NCBI GenBank assembly: GCA_019113245.1
Contig: DXHU01000005.1
Span: 62,001-126,000, forward strand
Length of the DNA stretch: 64,000 nt
Direction: 5' to 3'
DNA from: Candidatus Ornithospirochaeta avicola
GTDB taxonomy: Bacteria; Spirochaetota; Spirochaetia; Sphaerochaetales; Sphaerochaetaceae
Part shown: positions 25,911 through 52,003 of the stretch, piece after piece
Layout: each line of letters begins with the position of its first letter
Position numbering within the stretch: position 1 is the first letter of the stretch
Notes under the pieces: model-generated
The model's input: the letters and a program-made list of their open reading frames with translations, nothing else
Database searches by the model: none
What the model was told of the DNA's origin: nothing
Program-made: the position numbers and the translations under genes

Positions 25911-26273
25911 GGGGGTGTTTTGGTTTCGACTAGCTTTGCTAGGTCATGGACTGCAGACCAAGAGCTGACTTGTAAAACCGGCGCAAAAAATTAAATGCAA
26001 AGAAAGAAGACGACAACGTCGAAACTCTTGCTTTTGCTGCTTAATTAAACGCAGCATGGGGAAGGCGGAGATGCTTCCGCTCTGCATTCCCTAACAGACA
26101 AAGGAAGCTTTTTTGCTCATAAGGGCCGTATGAGTCGAAGAAAAACAGGTCATATCTTTTCTTTACGTTTGTTGCTTTACCGATAGATTAGAGAAAATTT
26201 AGAAACAGCAACTAAGCCTGTAGACGTTCATGGATAGACTGTTAGGACGGGAGTTCGAGTCTCCCCACCTCCA
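25911..26273 (+). ncRNA. ssrA: Transfer-messenger RNA (tmRNA), one-piece form
   Basis: Rescues stalled ribosomes with SmpB and tags the nascent chain for proteolysis. The 5-prime end GGGGGTG with TTTTGGTTTCGAC pairs with 3-prime CACCTCC, including the usual G-U at position 3; the T arm is GGGAG-TTCGAGT-CTCCC at 26249-26265. The discriminator A is 26273 and CCA is not encoded. The tag frame starts at GCA 25997 and reads AKKEDDNVETLAFAA, with stop TAA 26042-26044; the hydrophobic end LAFAA fits ClpXP-type tags. A TetR-type gene starts 17 bases after the 3-prime end with no terminator between. Confidence 0.97.
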
Positions 26274-42560: not shown

Positions 42561-45125
42561 ATGGCAAAAGAAAAAGATAACCTTACGCCGATGATGCGGC
42601 AGTATATGAAAATCAAGGAGGAGCACCAGGACAAGGTGCTCTTCTTCCGCCTTGGTGATTTTTATGAGATGTTCGATCAGGACGCGATTGAAGTATCGCG
42701 GCTTTTGAATCTTACTCTAACAAAAAGAGCCGGTAATCCGATGTGCGGAGTTCCTTATCATGCTGCAAAGAATTATATAAAGAGACTTCTGGATCTTGGA
42801 AAGAAGATTGCAATATGTGAGCAGATTGACCTTAATGAGGATTCTAAAGATATTGCAGAGCGCCGTGTTGTCCAGATTTATACTCCTGCAACAGTTGTTG
42901 AAGATGAATTTTTAAACTCCACAGAGTCAAGCTTCATAATGAGCATATATCAGGACAGGAAAGGACTTGCTGTATCATATGCTGACATAACAACAGGTGA
43001 TTTTTTCATAAGGAATTTTCCTCTTGAAAGATCATACAGGGAGCTTGAGAATGCAATATATCAGATAGAGCCGAAAGAAATCCTTGTACTTGATGATTTT
43101 TACTTTTCAGACAAGAGCCTCCGGACTCTCCTTGATTCGCTTCCTGTCATGCTCACAAAGCTTCCTTCTTTCTATTTTTCAAAGAAAAGTGCCAAAAAGG
43201 AGCTTGAAGAACAGTTTTCAAAGAATCTTTATTCTCTTTTCTCAATTGACGAAAATGAGACATGCATCTTTTCATCCGGTGCTTTATTGAAATACATAAA
43301 GGAGATGTCAAAGACAGATCTGGACCAGTTTAAGGGCATAAGCCGCGTCAGCGCAGAGCGTTACATGTTCTTAAGTTCATCGACAATAAAATCCCTTGAG
43401 CTTGTTTCAAACCAGAGCAGCGGGAAAAGCGAGATGAGCCTTTTGTCATCAATCAACAGGACAGTAACATCATCAGGAGCGAGAATGCTCAAATCCTTTG
43501 TTCTCAATCCTCTGTATGACAGAAAGAAGATTGACCAGAGGCTTTCATGGGTCGATTATTTTTTCTCAAGGAATGAAGAAGAGAAGAAAGTAAGAGATGC
43601 TCTCTCCATCTCATCTGACCTTGAGAGGATAGCAAGCAAGATCAGCATGAATAAAATCGTGCCCCGAGATCTTATTGCAATCTCTGACAGTGTATCAACA
43701 TTATCATCATTGATTGATGAAAACAGAAAATATCTTGAGCTTGTTGAAGGCACAGAAATTGATTTTTCATCTCTGATCTCTCTTTCTCTGGATATAGACA
43801 AGGCTATCAACCGCGAGTGTACGAACATCAACGGTAAAGAGAAGATAATAAACGACGGATATTCAGCTGAGCTTGATGAAGTAAGAAATGTCATCTCCTC
43901 CTCAAATGAAATACTTTCTTCCTATCTGAATGAAATAAAAAACGAGACAGGAATAAATAATATCAGATGCGGAGAAAACAGGATTATCGGCTATTATCTT
44001 GAAGTCTCTAAAGGAAACCTAAACAAGGTTCCTTCCTATTTCATAAGAAGGCAGAGCCTAGTCGGCGGTGAGAGATTCAAAACTGAAAAGCTTGATGAGA
44101 TAGAAAGCATGATAAGCTCAAGCAGGGAAAATGAAGGGAAAATAGAAAATAGGATCTACAAGAGCTTCATATCACGAATAGAAGAAGTGAACTCATCAAT
44201 TGAGATGCTTGGAAAAGTCATCTCTTATCTTGATGTTTATTCCTCTCTTTCATATCTGGCACATGAAGAAGATTATACAAGGCCTTTTATTGCAGACGAG
44301 GGCTCAGATTTGATTTTGGAAGATGCCCGTCATCCTGTTGTAGAGCAGTATCTGAAAAAAGGAGAGTATGTCAAAAACTCATTTTCATCAACAGGCGGCA
44401 GATTCTCCTTGATTACTGGCCCAAACATGGCAGGAAAAAGCACTTATTTAAGACAGACTGCACTTATTGTGCTTCTCTCTCATATCGGAAGCTATGTACC
44501 TGCATCAAAGGCGGTTATTCCTCTTACTGACAAGCTCTTCTGCCGTGTAGGTGCTCAGGATAATCTAGCAAAAGGAGAGTCAACGTTCCTTGTCGAGATG
44601 ACAGAATGTGCACAGATTCTCCGCTATGCAACAAGAAACAGCCTTGTGATAATGGATGAGATAGGGCGAGGTACAAGCACCCAGGATGGCATGAGCATCG
44701 CATATGCAGTCATAAAGTACATGAAAAACCTTGGAGCTATCACATTGTTTTCCACACATTATCATGAGCTTACGGGACTGGACAGCTATGGCTCCCAGCT
44801 TCTGACTATGAAGGTGGAGGAGACAAAGGGATCTGTTATCTTTCTCAGAAAGGCTGTAAAAGGAATTGCAGCATCAAGCTACGGAATACATGTTGCAAAG
44901 CTTGCAGGCATTCCCCGCTCAGTAATAAAGGATGCTCAGGATTTTCTTAAAAAGCACTTTGCTGACTATTCTTCGCTTGAAGATGAAAGCCTTTTCAAAC
45001 CTGATGATGAAAAAGCAAATGATTATGATGACATAATCAGCTTGATCAGAGATTTTGACATAGAGAACTCAAGTGCGATGAATGCGCTTCTTTTCCTTCT
45101 TGAAATAAAGAAAAAACTCACATGA
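42561..45125 (+). CDS. mutS: DNA mismatch repair protein MutS
   Basis: Recognises mismatches and starts repair. 854 residues, full length. Mismatch-binding domain with the F-x-E motif in LGDFYEMF (near residue 38), connector, core lever arms, and C-terminal ATPase with Walker A GPNMAGKST (~620), Walker B VIMDEIGRGTS and the following FSTHYHELT. ATG 42561 is one base after the bamA stop and has no ribosome site, so it likely depends on ribosomes terminating on bamA. The order bamA-mutS parallels treponemes. Confidence 0.97.
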   Translation: MAKEKDNLTPMMRQYMKIKEEHQDKVLFFRLGDFYEMFDQDAIEVSRLLNLTLTKRAGNPMCGVPYHAAKNYIKRLLDLGKKIAICEQIDLNEDSKDIAERRVVQIYTPATVVEDEFLNSTESSFIMSIYQDRKGLAVSYADITTGDFFIRNFPLERSYRELENAIYQIEPKEILVLDDFYFSDKSLRTLLDSLPVMLTKLPSFYFSKKSAKKELEEQFSKNLYSLFSIDENETCIFSSGALLKYIKEMSKTDLDQFKGISRVSAERYMFLSSSTIKSLELVSNQSSGKSEMSLLSSINRTVTSSGARMLKSFVLNPLYDRKKIDQRLSWVDYFFSRNEEEKKVRDALSISSDLERIASKISMNKIVPRDLIAISDSVSTLSSLIDENRKYLELVEGTEIDFSSLISLSLDIDKAINRECTNINGKEKIINDGYSAELDEVRNVISSSNEILSSYLNEIKNETGINNIRCGENRIIGYYLEVSKGNLNKVPSYFIRRQSLVGGERFKTEKLDEIESMISSSRENEGKIENRIYKSFISRIEEVNSSIEMLGKVISYLDVYSSLSYLAHEEDYTRPFIADEGSDLILEDARHPVVEQYLKKGEYVKNSFSSTGGRFSLITGPNMAGKSTYLRQTALIVLLSHIGSYVPASKAVIPLTDKLFCRVGAQDNLAKGESTFLVEMTECAQILRYATRNSLVIMDEIGRGTSTQDGMSIAYAVIKYMKNLGAITLFSTHYHELTGLDSYGSQLLTMKVEETKGSVIFLRKAVKGIAASSYGIHVAKLAGIPRSVIKDAQDFLKKHFADYSSLEDESLFKPDDEKANDYDDIISLIRDFDIENSSAMNALLFLLEIKKKLT

Positions 45126-45127
45126 TA

Positions 45128-45156
45128 TTGACAGCATTTTCATTCTGAGCTATAAA
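45128..45156 (+). promoter_or_regulatory. Near-consensus promoter of the rimP-nusA-infB operon
   Basis: TTGACA (45128-45133), exact 17-base spacer, TATAAA (45151-45156). It is the best sigma-70-type promoter in the window. Transcription should begin near 45163, upstream of a terminator hairpin that precedes rimP. Confidence 0.85.
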
Positions 45157-45181
45157 ATACACAGTTTCATTAAAGTGATTT

Positions 45182-45209
45182 AAGGAACCCATCCTGCGGT
45201 TCCTTTTTT
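45182..45209 (+). terminator. Terminator-type hairpin in the leader of the rimP-nusA operon
   Basis: Perfect 8-bp stem AAGGAACC/GGTTCCTT, 8-base loop, six Ts. It is downstream of the operon promoter and only 15 bases before the rimP start. It may end mutS transcripts, but any transcript of the rimP operon must pass it, so it acts as an attenuator for that operon. Confidence 0.85.
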
Positions 45210-45224
45210 CATGATTGGAGAAAT

Positions 45225-45713
45225 ATGCTTTTAGATAAATTGAGAGAAAATGAACTTTATAAGGAACTTGAGAATCTTGTTTCTCCTCTCGGCTATCATA
45301 TAGTAGATACATACAAGAATGAGAAGAAAGGAGAAACAGAGCTTACTGTTCTTGTTGTAAAGAAGGGTGGAGACATTGCTCTTGATGATCTTGAAATCCT
45401 TTATAACCTTATCTATCCCCGTTATCAGGCAAAGTGGGACAGAAGTCTCACACTTGAAGTCTCCAGTGCGGGAATGAACAGGAACATCAAGGATGTATAT
45501 GAGTTCCAGCTTTTTAATGGAAAAGATGTAAAGGTCTATTCAAATCTTTATTCTGCTTATGTTTATGGAAAGATTGAGGAAGCTGATGATGAGAAAGTTG
45601 TTCTTTCTTACGTCTCGATTCCTGATAAGAAAATCACTATGGACAAGATAGAAATGAATTTATCAGATATACAGAAAGCCAGGCTTGAAGGCCTTGAGGA
45701 GAGTGGGAAATGA
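45225..45713 (+). CDS. rimP: Ribosome maturation factor RimP
   Basis: 30S assembly factor. 162 residues, typical. N-terminal alpha/beta domain (PLGYHIVDTYKNEKKGETEL), LEVSSAGMNRNIKD as the family motif (normally VSSPGLdRpL), and a C-terminal SH3-like barrel (KDVKVYSNLYSAYVYGKIEEA). GGAG is 6 bases upstream of ATG 45225. First gene of the rimP-nusA-infB operon and overlaps nusA by 4 bases. Confidence 0.94.
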   Translation: MLLDKLRENELYKELENLVSPLGYHIVDTYKNEKKGETELTVLVVKKGGDIALDDLEILYNLIYPRYQAKWDRSLTLEVSSAGMNRNIKDVYEFQLFNGKDVKVYSNLYSAYVYGKIEEADDEKVVLSYVSIPDKKITMDKIEMNLSDIQKARLEGLEESGK

Positions 45714-47173
45714 GTCTTGATTTGACTAATGAAATTAATGAGATGATCTCAAGCGCGAATATGAGGGAAGAGCAGGTTCTCGACCTCATCAGAGATATGA
45801 TCAGAAGCGCATACAAGAGAAAATACGGGACAGATGAGAATGTCCAGATTGAATTTGATGATACAAACCGTCTTATGGATGTATATCAGATTAAAAAGGT
45901 TGTGCGTGAGGAAGACTGGTATAACGAGCACACTGAAATTTCAATCGATGATGCAAAAGAACTTGTTGAAGATGTTGAAATCGGTGATGTTATCAGCATC
46001 CCACTTGATCCAAAGACATTTGAGAGCTCTTCTGTCCAGTCTGCAAAGCAGAGAGGACAGCAGATTGTAAGAGAATTCACTAACGACCGTGTCTATGCAA
46101 ATGCAAAGAGCCTTGAAAACAAGCTCATATTCGGAAAGCTCACAAAGAGAAAGGAAGGCGGTGAGTACACTGTTGACATCAAGCTTGACAAGGCAGATGT
46201 TGTTTTTCCTCTTCGCGGTCAGAGCCCTCGTGAGACTTATCAGGACGGAGAGCAGTTGAAGTTCCTCGTCGAGAGAGTTGAGAAAGCTGATGCGCAGGAG
46301 ACAAACAGAAAAAAGAGAAAGGGCCCGAGTCAGGTCCGTGTTGTGCTTTCAAGAAGCAGCAGGGATTTTATCAAGGCACTTCTTGACAATGAGGTTCCTG
46401 AAATCAGCAACGGCGATGTCGAAATCGTTGCAATTGCGCGTCAGGCTGGTGTGAGAACTAAAATTGCAGTCGATACTAAGAAGATTGATGTTGATCCAGT
46501 GGGAGCTGTTGTAGGCCAGAAAGGAAGCAGAATCCAGACCATCATGAATGAGTGTGAGGGTGAGAAGATCGATGTTATCCGCTATTCATCAGATCCTCTT
46601 GCTTTTGTAGCAAACGCTCTTATTCCTGCACAGGTTGAGCGCGTTGTCACAATCGATCCTCAGAGCCGTCATGTTGTTGCCATTGTCGAGGACAATCAAC
46701 TTGGCTTTGCAATCGGACAGGGTGGTGTGAATGTCAAGCTTGCAAAGATGCTTACTGACTGGAATATTGAGGTGAAGACTCAGGCTCAGTTTGCAGAAAT
46801 GGAGATCAACCAGAAGATAATTGAAGATGCAAATGCACTGTTCAAGAATGAAGATGAGGAAGATGTAAGGCTTTCAAACGAGGACCTTGGCATTGCACCG
46901 GATGATACACCGCTGAGCGACATAGGCCTTGATGAGGATCTTGTTGCCAAGCTTCATAATCTTGATATCTGGTCTGTTGAAGAGTTCTTTGAGCTTACTG
47001 AAGAGGAGCTTAAGGAAAGCGGCCTAACAGAGGATGAGATAAGTACAGTCAGGAACTCAGTTGTATTTGAAGAAGATGATGACTATACATTCACATGTCC
47101 TAGTTGCGGTGCAGAGGTGCCAAGCGGAACAGCTGTATGTCCGAACTGCGGTGCTGAATTTGAATTTGAGTGA
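45710..47173 (+). CDS. nusA: Transcription termination/antitermination factor NusA with an added C-terminal zinc ribbon
   Basis: RNA-polymerase-bound factor controlling pausing, termination and antitermination. 487 residues. N-terminal polymerase-binding domain (~1-130), S1 domain (~135-200), KH1 (ARQAGVRTKIAV onward) and KH2 (AIGQGGVNVKLAKMLTDW). Residues ~400-450 hold one helix-hairpin-helix-like acidic repeat (LSDIGLDEDLVAKLHNLDIWS). The last ~30 residues form a Cys4 zinc ribbon, CPSC (463/466) and CPNC (477/480), which ordinary NusA lacks. ATGA overlap with rimP. Confidence 0.96.
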   Translation: MSLDLTNEINEMISSANMREEQVLDLIRDMIRSAYKRKYGTDENVQIEFDDTNRLMDVYQIKKVVREEDWYNEHTEISIDDAKELVEDVEIGDVISIPLDPKTFESSSVQSAKQRGQQIVREFTNDRVYANAKSLENKLIFGKLTKRKEGGEYTVDIKLDKADVVFPLRGQSPRETYQDGEQLKFLVERVEKADAQETNRKKRKGPSQVRVVLSRSSRDFIKALLDNEVPEISNGDVEIVAIARQAGVRTKIAVDTKKIDVDPVGAVVGQKGSRIQTIMNECEGEKIDVIRYSSDPLAFVANALIPAQVERVVTIDPQSRHVVAIVEDNQLGFAIGQGGVNVKLAKMLTDWNIEVKTQAQFAEMEINQKIIEDANALFKNEDEEDVRLSNEDLGIAPDDTPLSDIGLDEDLVAKLHNLDIWSVEEFFELTEEELKESGLTEDEISTVRNSVVFEEDDDYTFTCPSCGAEVPSGTAVCPNCGAEFEFE

Positions 47174-47184
47174 TAAAGGGAAAT

Positions 47185-49740
47185 ATGGAAGAAAACAAAG
47201 AGATAAAGAAAGTACATGTTATCAAGAGGGCTAGTGACTACATAAAGGACGAGCAGGCAAAAAATGCACAGAATGCAGATTCTTCTGAGAAGAAAAAGAT
47301 TGTCATCAAGAAGAAGCCTGTAGTCAAGATTAAAGTCAAGGAAGAAACTCTTTCTGCGCAGAAGAAGGAAGAGGAGGTTGCTGATAATTCTTTGAAAACT
47401 CGTAACGAAACTCCTGAGGCAAAGAAGAATTACGGCAAGGTCATCGGAGAAAATCCGTTCAAGACCAAAACCAGTCCTTCAGTAAGCCCGAGCAACAGGC
47501 TCAACAGTGCTGTGCATAACGGACCTGTCATCATCAAGAGCAGCAATCTTCCTCCCGTTCCAGGACAGAAGGGTGAGGTAAGCGAGAGCACAAGACCTCG
47601 TGTTGCAGGAATTGTCGGAGGACGTCCTGCAGGTCAGCGCACTTTCCGCCCTCATGACAGGAAGGGAATGCAGAAGGATGGCCAGACAAGGGATAATTCA
47701 TCATTCCGCCTCAGGGCAGGACAGAGCTATACACCGAGCAAGGATGGCGCAAACAGGGGCTTTAACAGAAACAATGACAGAAAGCCCGGTTTCTCACCTC
47801 GTCCTCAGGCTGCTCCTCAGATAGATCTTAATCAGAAGGGCGCAGGAAAGCGAAACAATCTCAACAACAGAAAGAAGGATTATGAAAAAGGATCCCATAT
47901 TCAGGAAGAGATTGATTTCCAGCTTCAGAAAAAGAAGAAAGAGGAAAGCAAGCTAGCTAGTGTCCCTTCTCGCATTGACATCATGGAGAATATCACAGTA
48001 AGCGATCTTGCAAAGAAGATGAATCTCAAGGCAAGCGATATTATCTCAAAGCTCTTCAAGATGGGCATGATGGTTACTATTAACCAAATGATAGATCATG
48101 ACACAGCAGAGATCATTGCATCTGAGTACGGCTGCGAGGTACACCTTGTTTCCCTTTATGATGAGACAATTATTGAAAGAGAAGAGGATAAGGAAGAAGA
48201 TCTTAGGCCAAGAGCTCCAATTGTTACAATCATGGGACATGTTGACCATGGTAAGACAAAGCTTCTTGATGCAATTAGAAGCTCCAATGTCGCTGGAGGA
48301 GAATTCGGAGGAATCACACAGCATATCGGTGCCTACAAGGTCTCTGTTCCAGGCAAGGGCGATGTAGTCTTCCTTGATACTCCCGGTCACAGCGCATTCA
48401 GCATGATGAGAGCTCGTGGCGCACAGGTAACTGACATTGTTGTCCTTGTTGTTGCAGCAAATGATGGAGTCATGCCGCAGACAAGAGAAGCAATAGACCA
48501 TGCAAGGGCTGCAAATGTTCCAATCATTGTTGCAATCAACAAATGCGACCTTCCAGAGGCAAATCCAGAGCGTGTTATGCAGCAGCTTTCAGATTTAGGT
48601 CTCATGCCCGAAGAATGGGGCGGCCAGACTCTTTACTGCAAGATTTCTGCGCTAAAGAAAGAAGGTATTGAGGACCTCCTTGATACAATTCTTCTTCAGG
48701 CAGAGATGCTTGAGCTTAAAGCAAATGCAAACTGCCGTGCAGAGGGAAAGATTCTTGAATCAAGAATCGACCAGGGAAGGGGTACGGTTGCAACAGTCAT
48801 CATCCAGAGAGGAACTTTAAATCAGGGAGACTATTATGTTGCCGGAATATATCCTGGCCGCGTAAGGGCAATGTTTGACGACAAAGGAAAAAGAATCCAG
48901 AGTGCAGGTCCTTCAACACCTGTGGAGATAATAGGACTTTCAAACATTCCTTCTGCCGGCGATCCGTTCCAGGTGACTGAGGATGAGAAACAGGCAAGGA
49001 TGGTAGGAGCAAAGCGTCAGGAACTTGAACGCCTTGGAGACGGTGCATCAAGAAACAAGCTTACTCTTGATATAATCAATGCAAAAATCAAGGAAGGAGA
49101 GATTACAGATTTCAATGTCATCATCAAAGGTGATGTTCAGGGAAGCGTTGAAGCTCTTCAGGGTGCCCTTGAGAAGCTCTCTACTGACGAGATTCGCCTT
49201 CATGTCATACGTGCAAGCGCAGGTGCTATCATAGAAAGCGACATTACACTTGCATCCGCAAGCAATGCAATTGTCATAGGCTTCAATGTACGTCCAACAC
49301 CGAAGGCTCAGGCTCTTGCTGAAAAAGAGAAGGTCGAGGTCAAGAAGTACAACATCATCTATGATGTCGTCGATGATATCAAAGCAGCTATGGAAGGAAT
49401 GCTCTCACCTGAAATCCGTGAGGTCGATATCGGCAAGGTTGAGGTCAGAGACCTGTTCAAAGTACCTAAAGTCGGAACAATTGCCGGCTGTTATGTAACA
49501 GAGGGCAAGGTCAAGAGAAACAGTCTTGTACGTGTCATCCGCGACAGCATACAGCTTAATCAGAACCTTATCCGTCTTGCTTCCCTCAAAAGATTCAAGG
49601 ACGATGCAAAAGAGGTCAACGAAGGCTATGAGTGCGGTATCGGGCTTGAGAACTGGCAGGATCTGCAGGTAGGCGATATTCTCGAGATTGTCGAGACAGA
49701 GGAAATCAGAAGGAAACTGGAGACAAATGAGTCAATATAG
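47185..49740 (+). CDS. infB: Translation initiation factor IF-2
   Basis: GTPase that positions initiator tRNA. About 851 residues from ATG 47185. The N-terminal ~260 residues are charged, low-complexity and Lys/Arg/Asn-rich, typical of IF-2. Then the IF2_N segment ([20 protein letters not shown]), G domain with GHVDHGKT (~351), DTPGHSAFS and NKCDLPEA, and C-terminal domains III-IV. GTG 47170 overlaps the nusA stop, but ATG 47185 has AAAGGG at the proper distance and is preferred. Overlaps rbfA by 14 bases. Confidence 0.96.
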
Positions 49741-50095
49741 TAACCAGCGCCTCAGTGTGAGAATCAAGGAGATTATTTCTTCCTTAATTCTTACAGGGGC
49801 CATAAAGAATCCTAATCTCTCAACGCTTGTGAGCATTACTGATGTAATTCTTGCAAAGGATAATGCAAACTGTACTGTATATGTATCAAGTGTGCTTGAA
49901 AACGACAAAAGCCTCGAAAAATCAGTAAAGGCTCTCAACAGTGCAGCTCCTTTCATCCAGAGCAGGATTAACAGTGTGCTCAAACTCAGAAACACTCCGG
50001 TCCTTCTTTTCAAGGAGGATAAATCCTTTAAGGAAGGCGAGAGGATTTCTGAGATTATAGACAAAGCGATGAAGGAAATTAAAAGTAATGAATGA
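49727..50095 (+). CDS. rbfA: Ribosome-binding factor A
   Basis: Late 30S assembly factor with a KH-like fold. 122 residues. Family blocks: NQRLSVRIKEIISSLILTG at the start, LVSITDVILAKDNANCTVYVS, and LKLRNTPVLLFKEDKS near the end. The frame is open to 49688 but ATG 49727 has GGAG 5 bases upstream and gives the normal start. Overlaps infB by 14 bases and truB by 8. Confidence 0.93.
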   Translation: MSQYSNQRLSVRIKEIISSLILTGAIKNPNLSTLVSITDVILAKDNANCTVYVSSVLENDKSLEKSVKALNSAAPFIQSRINSVLKLRNTPVLLFKEDKSFKEGERISEIIDKAMKEIKSNE

Positions 50096-50936
50096 TTTTC
50101 TCATCATTCTTTCTGAAAAAGAGAAGGGCAAAACGAGTTTTGCCCATCTCTTTAAATACAAAAAGCTCTATAAAGGCAAAAAAGTAGGGCATGCAGGAAC
50201 ACTTGATAAATTCGCAACAGGGCTGATGATTGTTCTTATCGGTAAGGCGACAAGACTTAATCAGGTATTTTCAAATCTGGATAAATCATACAGGGCAAAA
50301 ATTAAATTCGGGGAAGAAACAGATACACTCGACCCTGATGGAAAAGTCATAAGAAAAGCAGAGCTTCCATCAAAAGAGACTATACTTTCAGTTCTTCCTT
50401 CCTTCAAGGGAAAGATAATGCAGGCTCCTCCAGAGTATTCTGCTGTTCACATTGATGGAGAGCGTGCGTACAAAAGAGTTCAGAAGAATGAAGAAGTGAA
50501 AATGCCAGAGCGTGAAGTTGAGGTCTTTGATTACCGGGTATTGAAAATTGATGACTGCTATCTTGACATTATATTCCATGTGTCAAAAGGAACATATATA
50601 AGAAGTCTTGCACGTGATATAGGAAGAGCATGTGGCAGCTGTGCTCGCCTGGAAGAGTTAAATCGTCTTACAATCGGGCCATATTCACTATCTGAAAAGA
50701 ATCTTAGCACAATGGAGATTCTTGAAAAGACAGATCTCTTTTCAAAAGTTCGGCTGAAAACAGAATACAGGAAAGAAATTGACAACGGATATATAATCTC
50801 GTCATATATTCTTTCAGACAGCGCTCCGGAAAAAAAATATAAATTCCTTTATTTTGATTCTGAGCTTTATGCTGTTGCTGAAAACACTTCAGGGAGGCTG
50901 AAGATAATCTTCAGGCTTGGCTATGGAAGTCTTTGA
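50088..50936 (+). CDS. truB: tRNA pseudouridine-55 synthase TruB
   Basis: Makes pseudouridine at position 55 of the T loop. 282 residues. The catalytic Asp is in VGHAGTLDKFATGLMIVLIGKATR; later blocks are KSYRAKIKFGEETDTLDPDG, PPEYSAVHIDGERAYKR, FHVSKGTYIRSLARDIG and RLTIGPYSL. The N-terminus (FLIILSEKEKGKTSFAHL) is a degenerate form of the usual opening with a Lys-Pro turn. ATG 50088 has only AAGGA at a long distance; it overlaps rbfA by 8 bases. The last ~50 residues may be a small PUA-like domain. Confidence 0.92.
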   Translation: MNDFLIILSEKEKGKTSFAHLFKYKKLYKGKKVGHAGTLDKFATGLMIVLIGKATRLNQVFSNLDKSYRAKIKFGEETDTLDPDGKVIRKAELPSKETILSVLPSFKGKIMQAPPEYSAVHIDGERAYKRVQKNEEVKMPEREVEVFDYRVLKIDDCYLDIIFHVSKGTYIRSLARDIGRACGSCARLEELNRLTIGPYSLSEKNLSTMEILEKTDLFSKVRLKTEYRKEIDNGYIISSYILSDSAPEKKYKFLYFDSELYAVAENTSGRLKIIFRLGYGSL

Positions 50937-51702
50937 TTTTGACTATATTCTTTCTCATCCTTTAAAAGGCAGATGGGCTCTTTCTCTCGGAGTCTTTGAT
51001 GGTGTTCATTACGGACACAGGAAAATTCTCGAAAGCCTTGAGAAGGTAAAAAAAGAGAAGAAAATACAAAGTGCTATAATAAGCTTCAAAAGCAATCCCA
51101 AGATGAAAAATGCAAAGTTTATCGATACTTTGCGCCTCAGAGAGGAGTATATTTCATCATTTGATGTTAATTCCTTTCTGCTTATTGACTTTTCTGACAA
51201 ATTCAGAAAAATTTCAGGCTGTGAGTTCTGCTCGATGCTTTCATCCATCATGGAAATAGAAGCACTTGTTGTAGGCTCTGATTTCTTTCTCGGCACTCCT
51301 TCATGCCAGCTTGATGGATATGGAGTGAGAAAGGAATTTGAAAAGATGGCAAAGCCTATTGATTTGATTGTCGTGGATTTTGTCAGAAACAGAGAAGGTG
51401 AGAAAATCTCATCAACTCTTTTAAGAAAATATATTTCATCCGGAGACTTATTTAGTTATAATGAATCTTCGGGACAATATTACACTCTGGACTCAATGTC
51501 ATTACCCTCAGAGAAATCCGGTAGTGTTATATATGTCGACATCTCATCATGTTCACAGCTCCTTCCGCCACAGGGATGCTATGAAGTGAAGGTCGGCTCT
51601 GATACTTGCCTAGCATTTTTAGGTGCATCCAGGCTTGAAATCAGAAAAGGCTCGGATGATGATGTCATGGATAGAATACAGTTTATCAGGAGTATTAAAT
51701 GA
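50923..51702 (+). CDS. ribF: FAD synthetase (RibF) with intact FMN adenylyltransferase domain and degenerate riboflavin kinase domain
   Basis: About 259 residues, shorter than the usual ~310. The N-terminal nucleotidyltransferase domain is intact: [24 protein letters not shown] and [15 protein letters not shown]. The C-terminal ~85 residues keep faint kinase features ([13 protein letters not shown] resembling the L-P-P-x-G-V-Y strand) but lack the G-x-P-T-A-N motif that binds ATP/Mg and flavin. So it may only adenylate FMN. ATG 50923 is chosen over TTG 50917; only a weak AGG precedes. Overlaps truB by 14 bases, rpsO by 4. Confidence 0.88.
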
Positions 51703-51965
51703 TTAGTAAGGAAACAAAGCAGGAAATCATTGCTAAGTTCGGCGGCAGCGAGACAAACACAGGAGACAGCAAGGTTCAGATTGCTCTTCTGACAGCAAGA
51801 ATCAACGATCTTCAGAAGCACTTTAAAGAGAATCCGAAAGATCATGCATCAAGAAGAGGACTGCTAAAGCTTGTAGGTCAGAGAAGAAGGCTTTTGAAGT
51901 ATGTCAAGAATAGAGACATCAATGAGTACAGAAGCCTGATTGCCGAGCTTGGAATCAGAAAGTAA
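51699..51965 (+). CDS. rpsO: 30S ribosomal protein S15
   Basis: Binds the central domain of 16S rRNA. 88 residues, four-helix protein with the standard blocks [39 protein letters not shown] and [17 protein letters not shown] is 7 bases upstream of ATG 51699, which overlaps the ribF stop (ATGA). The order truB-ribF-rpsO-pnp is widespread in bacteria. A hairpin follows before pnp. Confidence 0.98.
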
Positions 51966-51975
51966 TAAAAGAAAC

Positions 51976-52003
51976 AAAGCGGGAAGAAATCTTCTCGCTT
52001 TTT
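51976..52003 (+). terminator. Hairpin between rpsO and pnp
   Basis: Stem of about 11 bp, AAAGCGGGAAG with CTTCTCGCTTT (one G-T), 3-4-base loop, then Ts. It could terminate part of the transcripts or serve as a processing and stability element, as the rpsO-pnp hairpins of Escherichia coli do. Confidence 0.75.

Follow-up and report, generated by a model that had tools for sequence, protein, structure and literature searches.

The rimP-leader, described computationally by Naville and Gautheret in 2010 as the most ubiquitous predicted attenuator and with NusA suggested as its effector, consists of a short terminator with a G-rich 5′ arm, a C-rich 3′ arm and a U stretch, located 4–130 nucleotides (nt) before rimP; its common form has no visible antiterminator, whilst an antiterminator variant is found in some Gammaproteobacteria (PMC2965389). 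In Bacillus subtilis, NusA autoregulates the nusA operon via an intrinsic terminator in the 5′ leader (Mondal 2016, as recounted in a review, PMC12288461), with the rimP-nusA leader spanning ~180 nt (PMC2965389), and NusA is most active on terminators that exhibit weak hairpins or interrupted U tracts (PMC12288461). RNA-seq of Streptococcus agalactiae (gbs0413-gbs0418) has revealed termination 31 nt past the rimP-nusA-infB start site, for which NusA feedback was proposed (PMC4448216), and the metY-nusA-infB operon of Escherichia coli has terminators upstream of rimP, control by NusA and transcripts that continue into rpsO-pnp (PMC6511841). Here, we analyse the rimP-nusA-infB leader, which precedes an essential transcription/translation operon, in the gut spirochaete Candidatus Ornithospirochaeta avicola, contained in a stretch of 64,000 nt from contig DXHU01000005.1 (the window). 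This leader is most likely a further instance of the known rimP-leader attenuator, to which an overlapping 5′ hairpin has been added in this lineage.

The operon promoter, TTGACA-17-TATAAA, agrees with the consensus at 11 of 12 positions and had been passed over by an automated promoter scan, the filter of which needs a T at the sixth -10 position. It is followed by the predicted transcription start, a terminator hairpin and the rimP start codon (Table 1), giving a leader of ~60 nt up to this codon, with one evident promoter. A preliminary description of this DNA had recognised the same promoter, placed 15 bases between the T run and rimP and argued that no promoter could lie below the hairpin: all of this holds, with the 15 nt at 45210–45224 preceding the ATG at 45225 and offering too little space for promoter hexamers. 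Its 8-base-pair (bp) hairpin with six Ts is correct as to position, stem and T run, but not as to eight pairs plus a separate run of six: two of the Ts lie inside the stem, which thus has either 6 bp followed by T6 or 8 bp followed by T4.

Table 1. Features of the rimP leader and of the operon behind it (window coordinates).
Feature	Position	Strand	Evidence
-35 hexamer TTGACA, rimP operon promoter	45128..45133	+	sequence; TTGAC in 45/45 same-genus leaders listed
-10 hexamer TATAAA, after 17-nt spacer	45151..45156	+	sequence; promoter detected in 44/45 same-genus leaders
Predicted transcription start	45163	+	7 nt below -10; conservation starts here; first base of conserved AGTTTCA
Candidate antiterminator hairpin	45164..45188	+	fold, arm-pairing test, covariation of sister-genus homologue
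Terminator hairpin AAGGAACC-CATCCTGC-GGTTCCTT	45182..45205	+	sequence, folding; terminator in 138/141 spirochaete leaders
U tract, six Ts, first two shared with stem	45204..45209	+	sequence
rimP ribosome-binding site GGAG	45217..45220	+	sequence; GGAGG in nearly all relatives
rimP	45225..45713	+	Pfam RimP_N
nusA (N-terminal domain, KH domains, C-terminal zinc ribbon)	45710..47173	+	Pfam and PDB sequence matches
infB, rbfA, truB, ribF-like, rpsO (rest of first operon segment)	47170..51965	+	NCBIfam
rpsO-pnp hairpin AAAGCGGGAAGAAATCTTCTCGCTTT, strong, 11 bp, short T run	51976..52001	+	sequence/hairpin scan

Comparison with the rimP-leader reveals that the same operon carries the terminator in its leader, at a distance from the ATG well inside the published range, so that the position agrees fully with the description. 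The stem motif of 2010 (GGGc...gCCC) agrees in part, with the G-rich/C-rich polarity maintained in the GGAACC/GGTTCC of the window whilst the exact motif is absent; the genus consensus is GGGACC/GGTCCC (GGG/CCC in 43/45), the family often exhibits GGGATCG and other families often GAGTCG. Differences lie in the U tract, which is interrupted in 41/45 members of the genus, and in the candidate 5′ antiterminator carried by this genus and by a related one (g12), which does not fit a common form described without one. The B. subtilis leader is similar in having a suboptimal type of leader terminator with nusA inside the controlled operon, yet it is about three times as long, it reportedly works without an antiterminator whereas a candidate one is conserved here, and the NusA response that is established there is inferred here. 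The S. agalactiae leader is likewise very short, although its RNA ends have been mapped whereas those of the window are predicted. The E. coli leader differs by its tRNA gene, several promoters and RNase III sites: here one promoter is evident and no tRNA gene was found. A known Rfam family as the identity of the leader could be ruled out, as none of 4227 covariance models matched at gathering scores between 40000 and 60000 of the window, nor was there any match in eight loci at E ≤ 0.5.

In order to compare this leader with those of relatives, the locus was located via NusA in the window genome, in 47 genomes of the same genus and in members of other genera and other families within the class, and the leaders were then retrieved: 141 spirochaete rimP leaders in total, of which 45 belong to the same genus and 61 to the two closely studied genera (45 plus 16 of g12), with all counts within a genus being phylogenetically non-independent. 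A terminator-like hairpin was present in 138/141 leaders, and in 133/141 a promoter (TTGAC) was also present above it, whilst dinucleotide shuffles afforded a terminator in 0.5% and the combination in 0/423. Within the window, a terminator-like hairpin occurs no more than 160 nt upstream of 5/52 open reading frames, and a promoter as well only at rimP. The terminator is followed by the rimP start codon after a median of ~20 nt in relatives. According to the preliminary description, its attenuator would be refuted if close relatives had lost the stem; all 45 leaders of the genus retain promoter and stem, and in the two closest genomes both arms have changed together, from GGGACC/GGTCCC to GGAACC/GGTTCC. 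Its proposal of a feedback attenuator is thereby strengthened, both through this conservation and through the published rimP-leader, S. agalactiae and B. subtilis cases, with the action of NusA at this locus being drawn from those cases.

Given that mutS ends at 45125, is co-directional and lies only 57 nt above the hairpin, the hairpin could conceivably be the mutS terminator, with rimP transcribed by read-through or from an unseen promoter. We give this explanation next to no credence, as it is already contradicted: mutS was found upstream in 28/61 leaders of the two genera and not in the others, the nearest upstream gene lies on the opposite strand in 5/61 with the leader unchanged, and a promoter, conserved alongside the hairpin, occupies the interval that separates the hairpin from mutS. 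Because the leader is kept with differing or even opposite-strand upstream genes, we assign the hairpin to the rimP operon.

Two further observations were made on terminator stems of more distant leaders. In other spirochaete families (L054–L089) the stem sequence is strikingly conserved as (G)GAGUCG...CGACUC(C) with U6-8, which suggests that the letters of the stem may themselves be recognised. In other genera of the family (L046, L100–L114, L120–L131) many stems carry a recurrent single-base bulge on the 3′ arm, ~5 bp above the base, for example GGAACCCGTCACGGAGTTCC.

The strength of the stem and the quality of the U tract appear to be balanced against each other. In the same genus, 41/45 leaders combine an interrupted tract (e.g. 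TTTATT) with the stem GGGACC/GGTCCC or one of equal strength (hairpins of -9.6 to -12.4 kcal/mol), and the remaining 4/45, namely those of the window, of the genome closest to it and of two genomes from a different clade, have an uninterrupted U6-7 but hairpins with a weak stem, at -7.5 to -7.8 kcal/mol. The 16 leaders of g12 exhibit U6-8 and hairpins of -7.3 to -9.3 kcal/mol. Across the 61 leaders there is no overlap between the class of weak stem with U6-8 and that of strong stem with interrupted UUUAUU, and on a tree of RimP and the NusA N-terminus the tract type has switched at least four times. Each leader of the genus is thus suboptimal in one of the two ways to which NusA responds best, the window through a weak hairpin with U6 and the 41 relatives through an interrupted tract below a strong hairpin. 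It looks as if termination were being kept at an intermediate level. Such a trade-off requires no more than a selected intermediate read-through, and any ligand site is putative, so that the terminator could also be a fixed damper that cuts the output of the operon by a constant fraction with no response to NusA or any other factor. We consider this improbable: the factor by which such terminators are stimulated is itself encoded in this operon, the nusA leader is NusA-responsive where tested (PMC12288461), and a 5′ segment that is near-invariant over 45 species exceeds the needs of a damper.

This segment forms a second hairpin, which was not part of the preliminary description; neither were the stem/U-tract trade-off and the existence of published leaders of this kind. 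Its 5′ side consists of GUUUC (45164–45168), a bulged A and UUAAA (45170–45174), and after a GNRA-type GUGA loop (45175–45178) its 3′ side consists of UUUAA (45179–45183) and GGAAC (45184–45188), the latter doubling as the 5′ arm of the terminator. GUUUC is predicted to pair with this GGAAC in the window and with GGGAC in the genus. From the predicted +1 onwards the 45 leaders of the genus read AGUUUCA-UU(U)AAA-GNRA-UUU(A)AA-GGGACC and are near-invariant, the main exception being L040. The fold of the window has -4.0 kcal/mol and a z-score of -2.7, with median z-scores of -4.0 in this genus and -2.7 in g12, and the gain in arm pairing over shuffles has a median p of 0.007 and 0.028, respectively. 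In most other groups of the family and class arm pairing is unsupported (median p ~0.2–1, scattered single cases aside), and we have hence dropped the idea of an antiterminator throughout the family or class.

Could the conserved segment be a DNA element, such as an initially transcribed sequence or an operator, rather than an RNA structure? The predicted +1 is its first base, there is hardly any variation in it within the genus, and its TTAAA-GTGA-TTTAA is also an inverted repeat in DNA. Two results nevertheless render this reading unlikely. Variation in the loop obeys the tetraloop rule of RNA, with GTGA, GCAA, GTAA, GCGA and GAGA all conforming to GNRA, and g12 follows the same plan with different letters (AGUUC-AA-stem-loop-stem-AG-GAAC): 96% of its cells pair, cells changed on both sides number 14 compared to 3.9 in shuffles, with slid controls giving lower values. 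The inner stem as an RNA structure is thus well supported by sequence comparison, through covariation in g12 and through the loop rule in this genus. One-base insertions on either side of the inner stem, left and right, are also coupled (counts of 25, 4, 0 and 16; Fisher 7e-9), and the register of the hairpin is kept in long and short forms; placed on the tree, the coupling comprises three to four independent pairs with none contrary (p 0.125). A consensus of the mixed alignment by RNAalifold returned the 5′ hairpin and not the terminator; this owes something to long forms being misaligned with short ones, and we give it no weight. In 45/48 genomes, the exact 5′ motif has a single occurrence, which is at rimP; a regulon of such elements was rejected, with other covariance-model matches being weak and the three inspected resembling gene-end terminators or chance coding matches. 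Pairing of the 5′ segment with the ribosome-binding site, seen in some full-leader folds, was also set aside, as it requires an ATGGAGG context that is not conserved.

The 5′ hairpin is a candidate antiterminator or factor-binding hairpin, and its role is speculative. It could act in a two-state switch as a true antiterminator, stabilised by a protein (NusA, RimP or a ribosomal protein) or another signal, with the terminator forming otherwise. GUUUC pairs with the terminator arm through an AU stem capped by the GNRA loop with its register kept, and the fold z-scores, the double changes in g12, the coupled insertions and the restriction of the element to rimP all speak for such a switch. Set against this, the 5′ hairpin reaches only -4 to -5 kcal/mol compared to -7.5 to -12 for the terminator, and because it is so much weaker it would need help, i.e. 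a binder, to hold the terminator open; the outer helix that competes with the terminator is a putative one, consistent with pairing yet nearly invariant within genera; and most other genera of the family lend no support. We therefore regard a switch as possible but doubtful, and as it is compatible with NusA feedback, its likelihood overlaps with that of the best explanation. In its fullest form, which we put forward tentatively, the nusA-operon attenuator of these two genera may have become a two-state RNA switch, in which a hairpin at the 5′ end (GNRA-capped in this genus) holds the 5′ arm of the terminator, a bound factor chooses between the states and selection tunes stem against U tract near the midpoint.

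The explanation that we favour, and consider likely, is that this leader attenuates transcription in the manner of the published rimP-leader, under negative feedback by NusA. It is the best explanation because the leader is an instance of this known attenuator and NusA-stimulated termination is established in the nusA leader of B. subtilis. RNA polymerase would start at ~45163 and make a leader of ~47 nt, whereupon a fraction of the complexes would stop at the U tract and the others would continue into rimP-nusA-infB and the later genes. NusA bound to RNA polymerase would promote forming of the suboptimal hairpin: with NusA abundant, more complexes would terminate and the operon would be turned down. 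The balance of stem strength against U tract would keep termination intermediate and hence sensitive to the factor. In this genus and the related genus the small 5′ hairpin would form first and would have to yield before the terminator forms; most likely, it determines how much read-through there is at baseline or serves as a contact site for a factor. Several points weigh against NusA feedback. The leader of this organism and its genus is known from sequence alone, from which a response to NusA cannot be read, and a fixed damper would look identical. A simple NusA model does not account for the 5′ hairpin, and the B. subtilis leader reportedly works without an antiterminator, the abstract of the 2016 study by Mondal being said to state that none is involved. 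Finally, phylogenetic non-independence weakens the counts, as seen with the coupled insertions when restricted to independent pairs.

Behind the leader, the 13 co-directional genes of the preliminary description are indeed present, in the order rimP, nusA, infB, rbfA, truB, ribF-like, rpsO, pnp, dut, two Lpt permeases, tgt and MurJ-like, with the second Lpt permease and the MurJ-like gene (murJ) named by sequence inspection only. Control of all of them by the single leader, as had been proposed, is made uncertain by the rpsO-pnp hairpin: this is possibly a partial terminator or processing site and may uncouple pnp and the later genes from the rimP leader. The rpsO-pnp junction of E. coli carries a terminator/RNase III region. 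The NusA of the window is an ordinary NusA with the usual N-terminal and KH domains. It also exhibits a C-terminal zinc ribbon, CPSCG...CPNCG (Pfam Zn_Ribbon_1, coded at 47086–47170), which is present in 30/30 NusA proteins checked from the genus and to our knowledge lies outside the usual NusA domain set. Elsewhere in the window, a transfer-messenger RNA gene is located at 25911–26273 (tag AKKEDDNVETLAFAA).

Our findings provide dense comparative evidence in spirochaetes for the most widespread predicted bacterial attenuator, and the 61 natural leaders with their trade-off between stem and tract constitute a ready test of how selection sets and holds the efficiency of termination. If the 5′ hairpin does bind a factor, these genera would show a plain NusA-feedback terminator evolving into a conditional switch.
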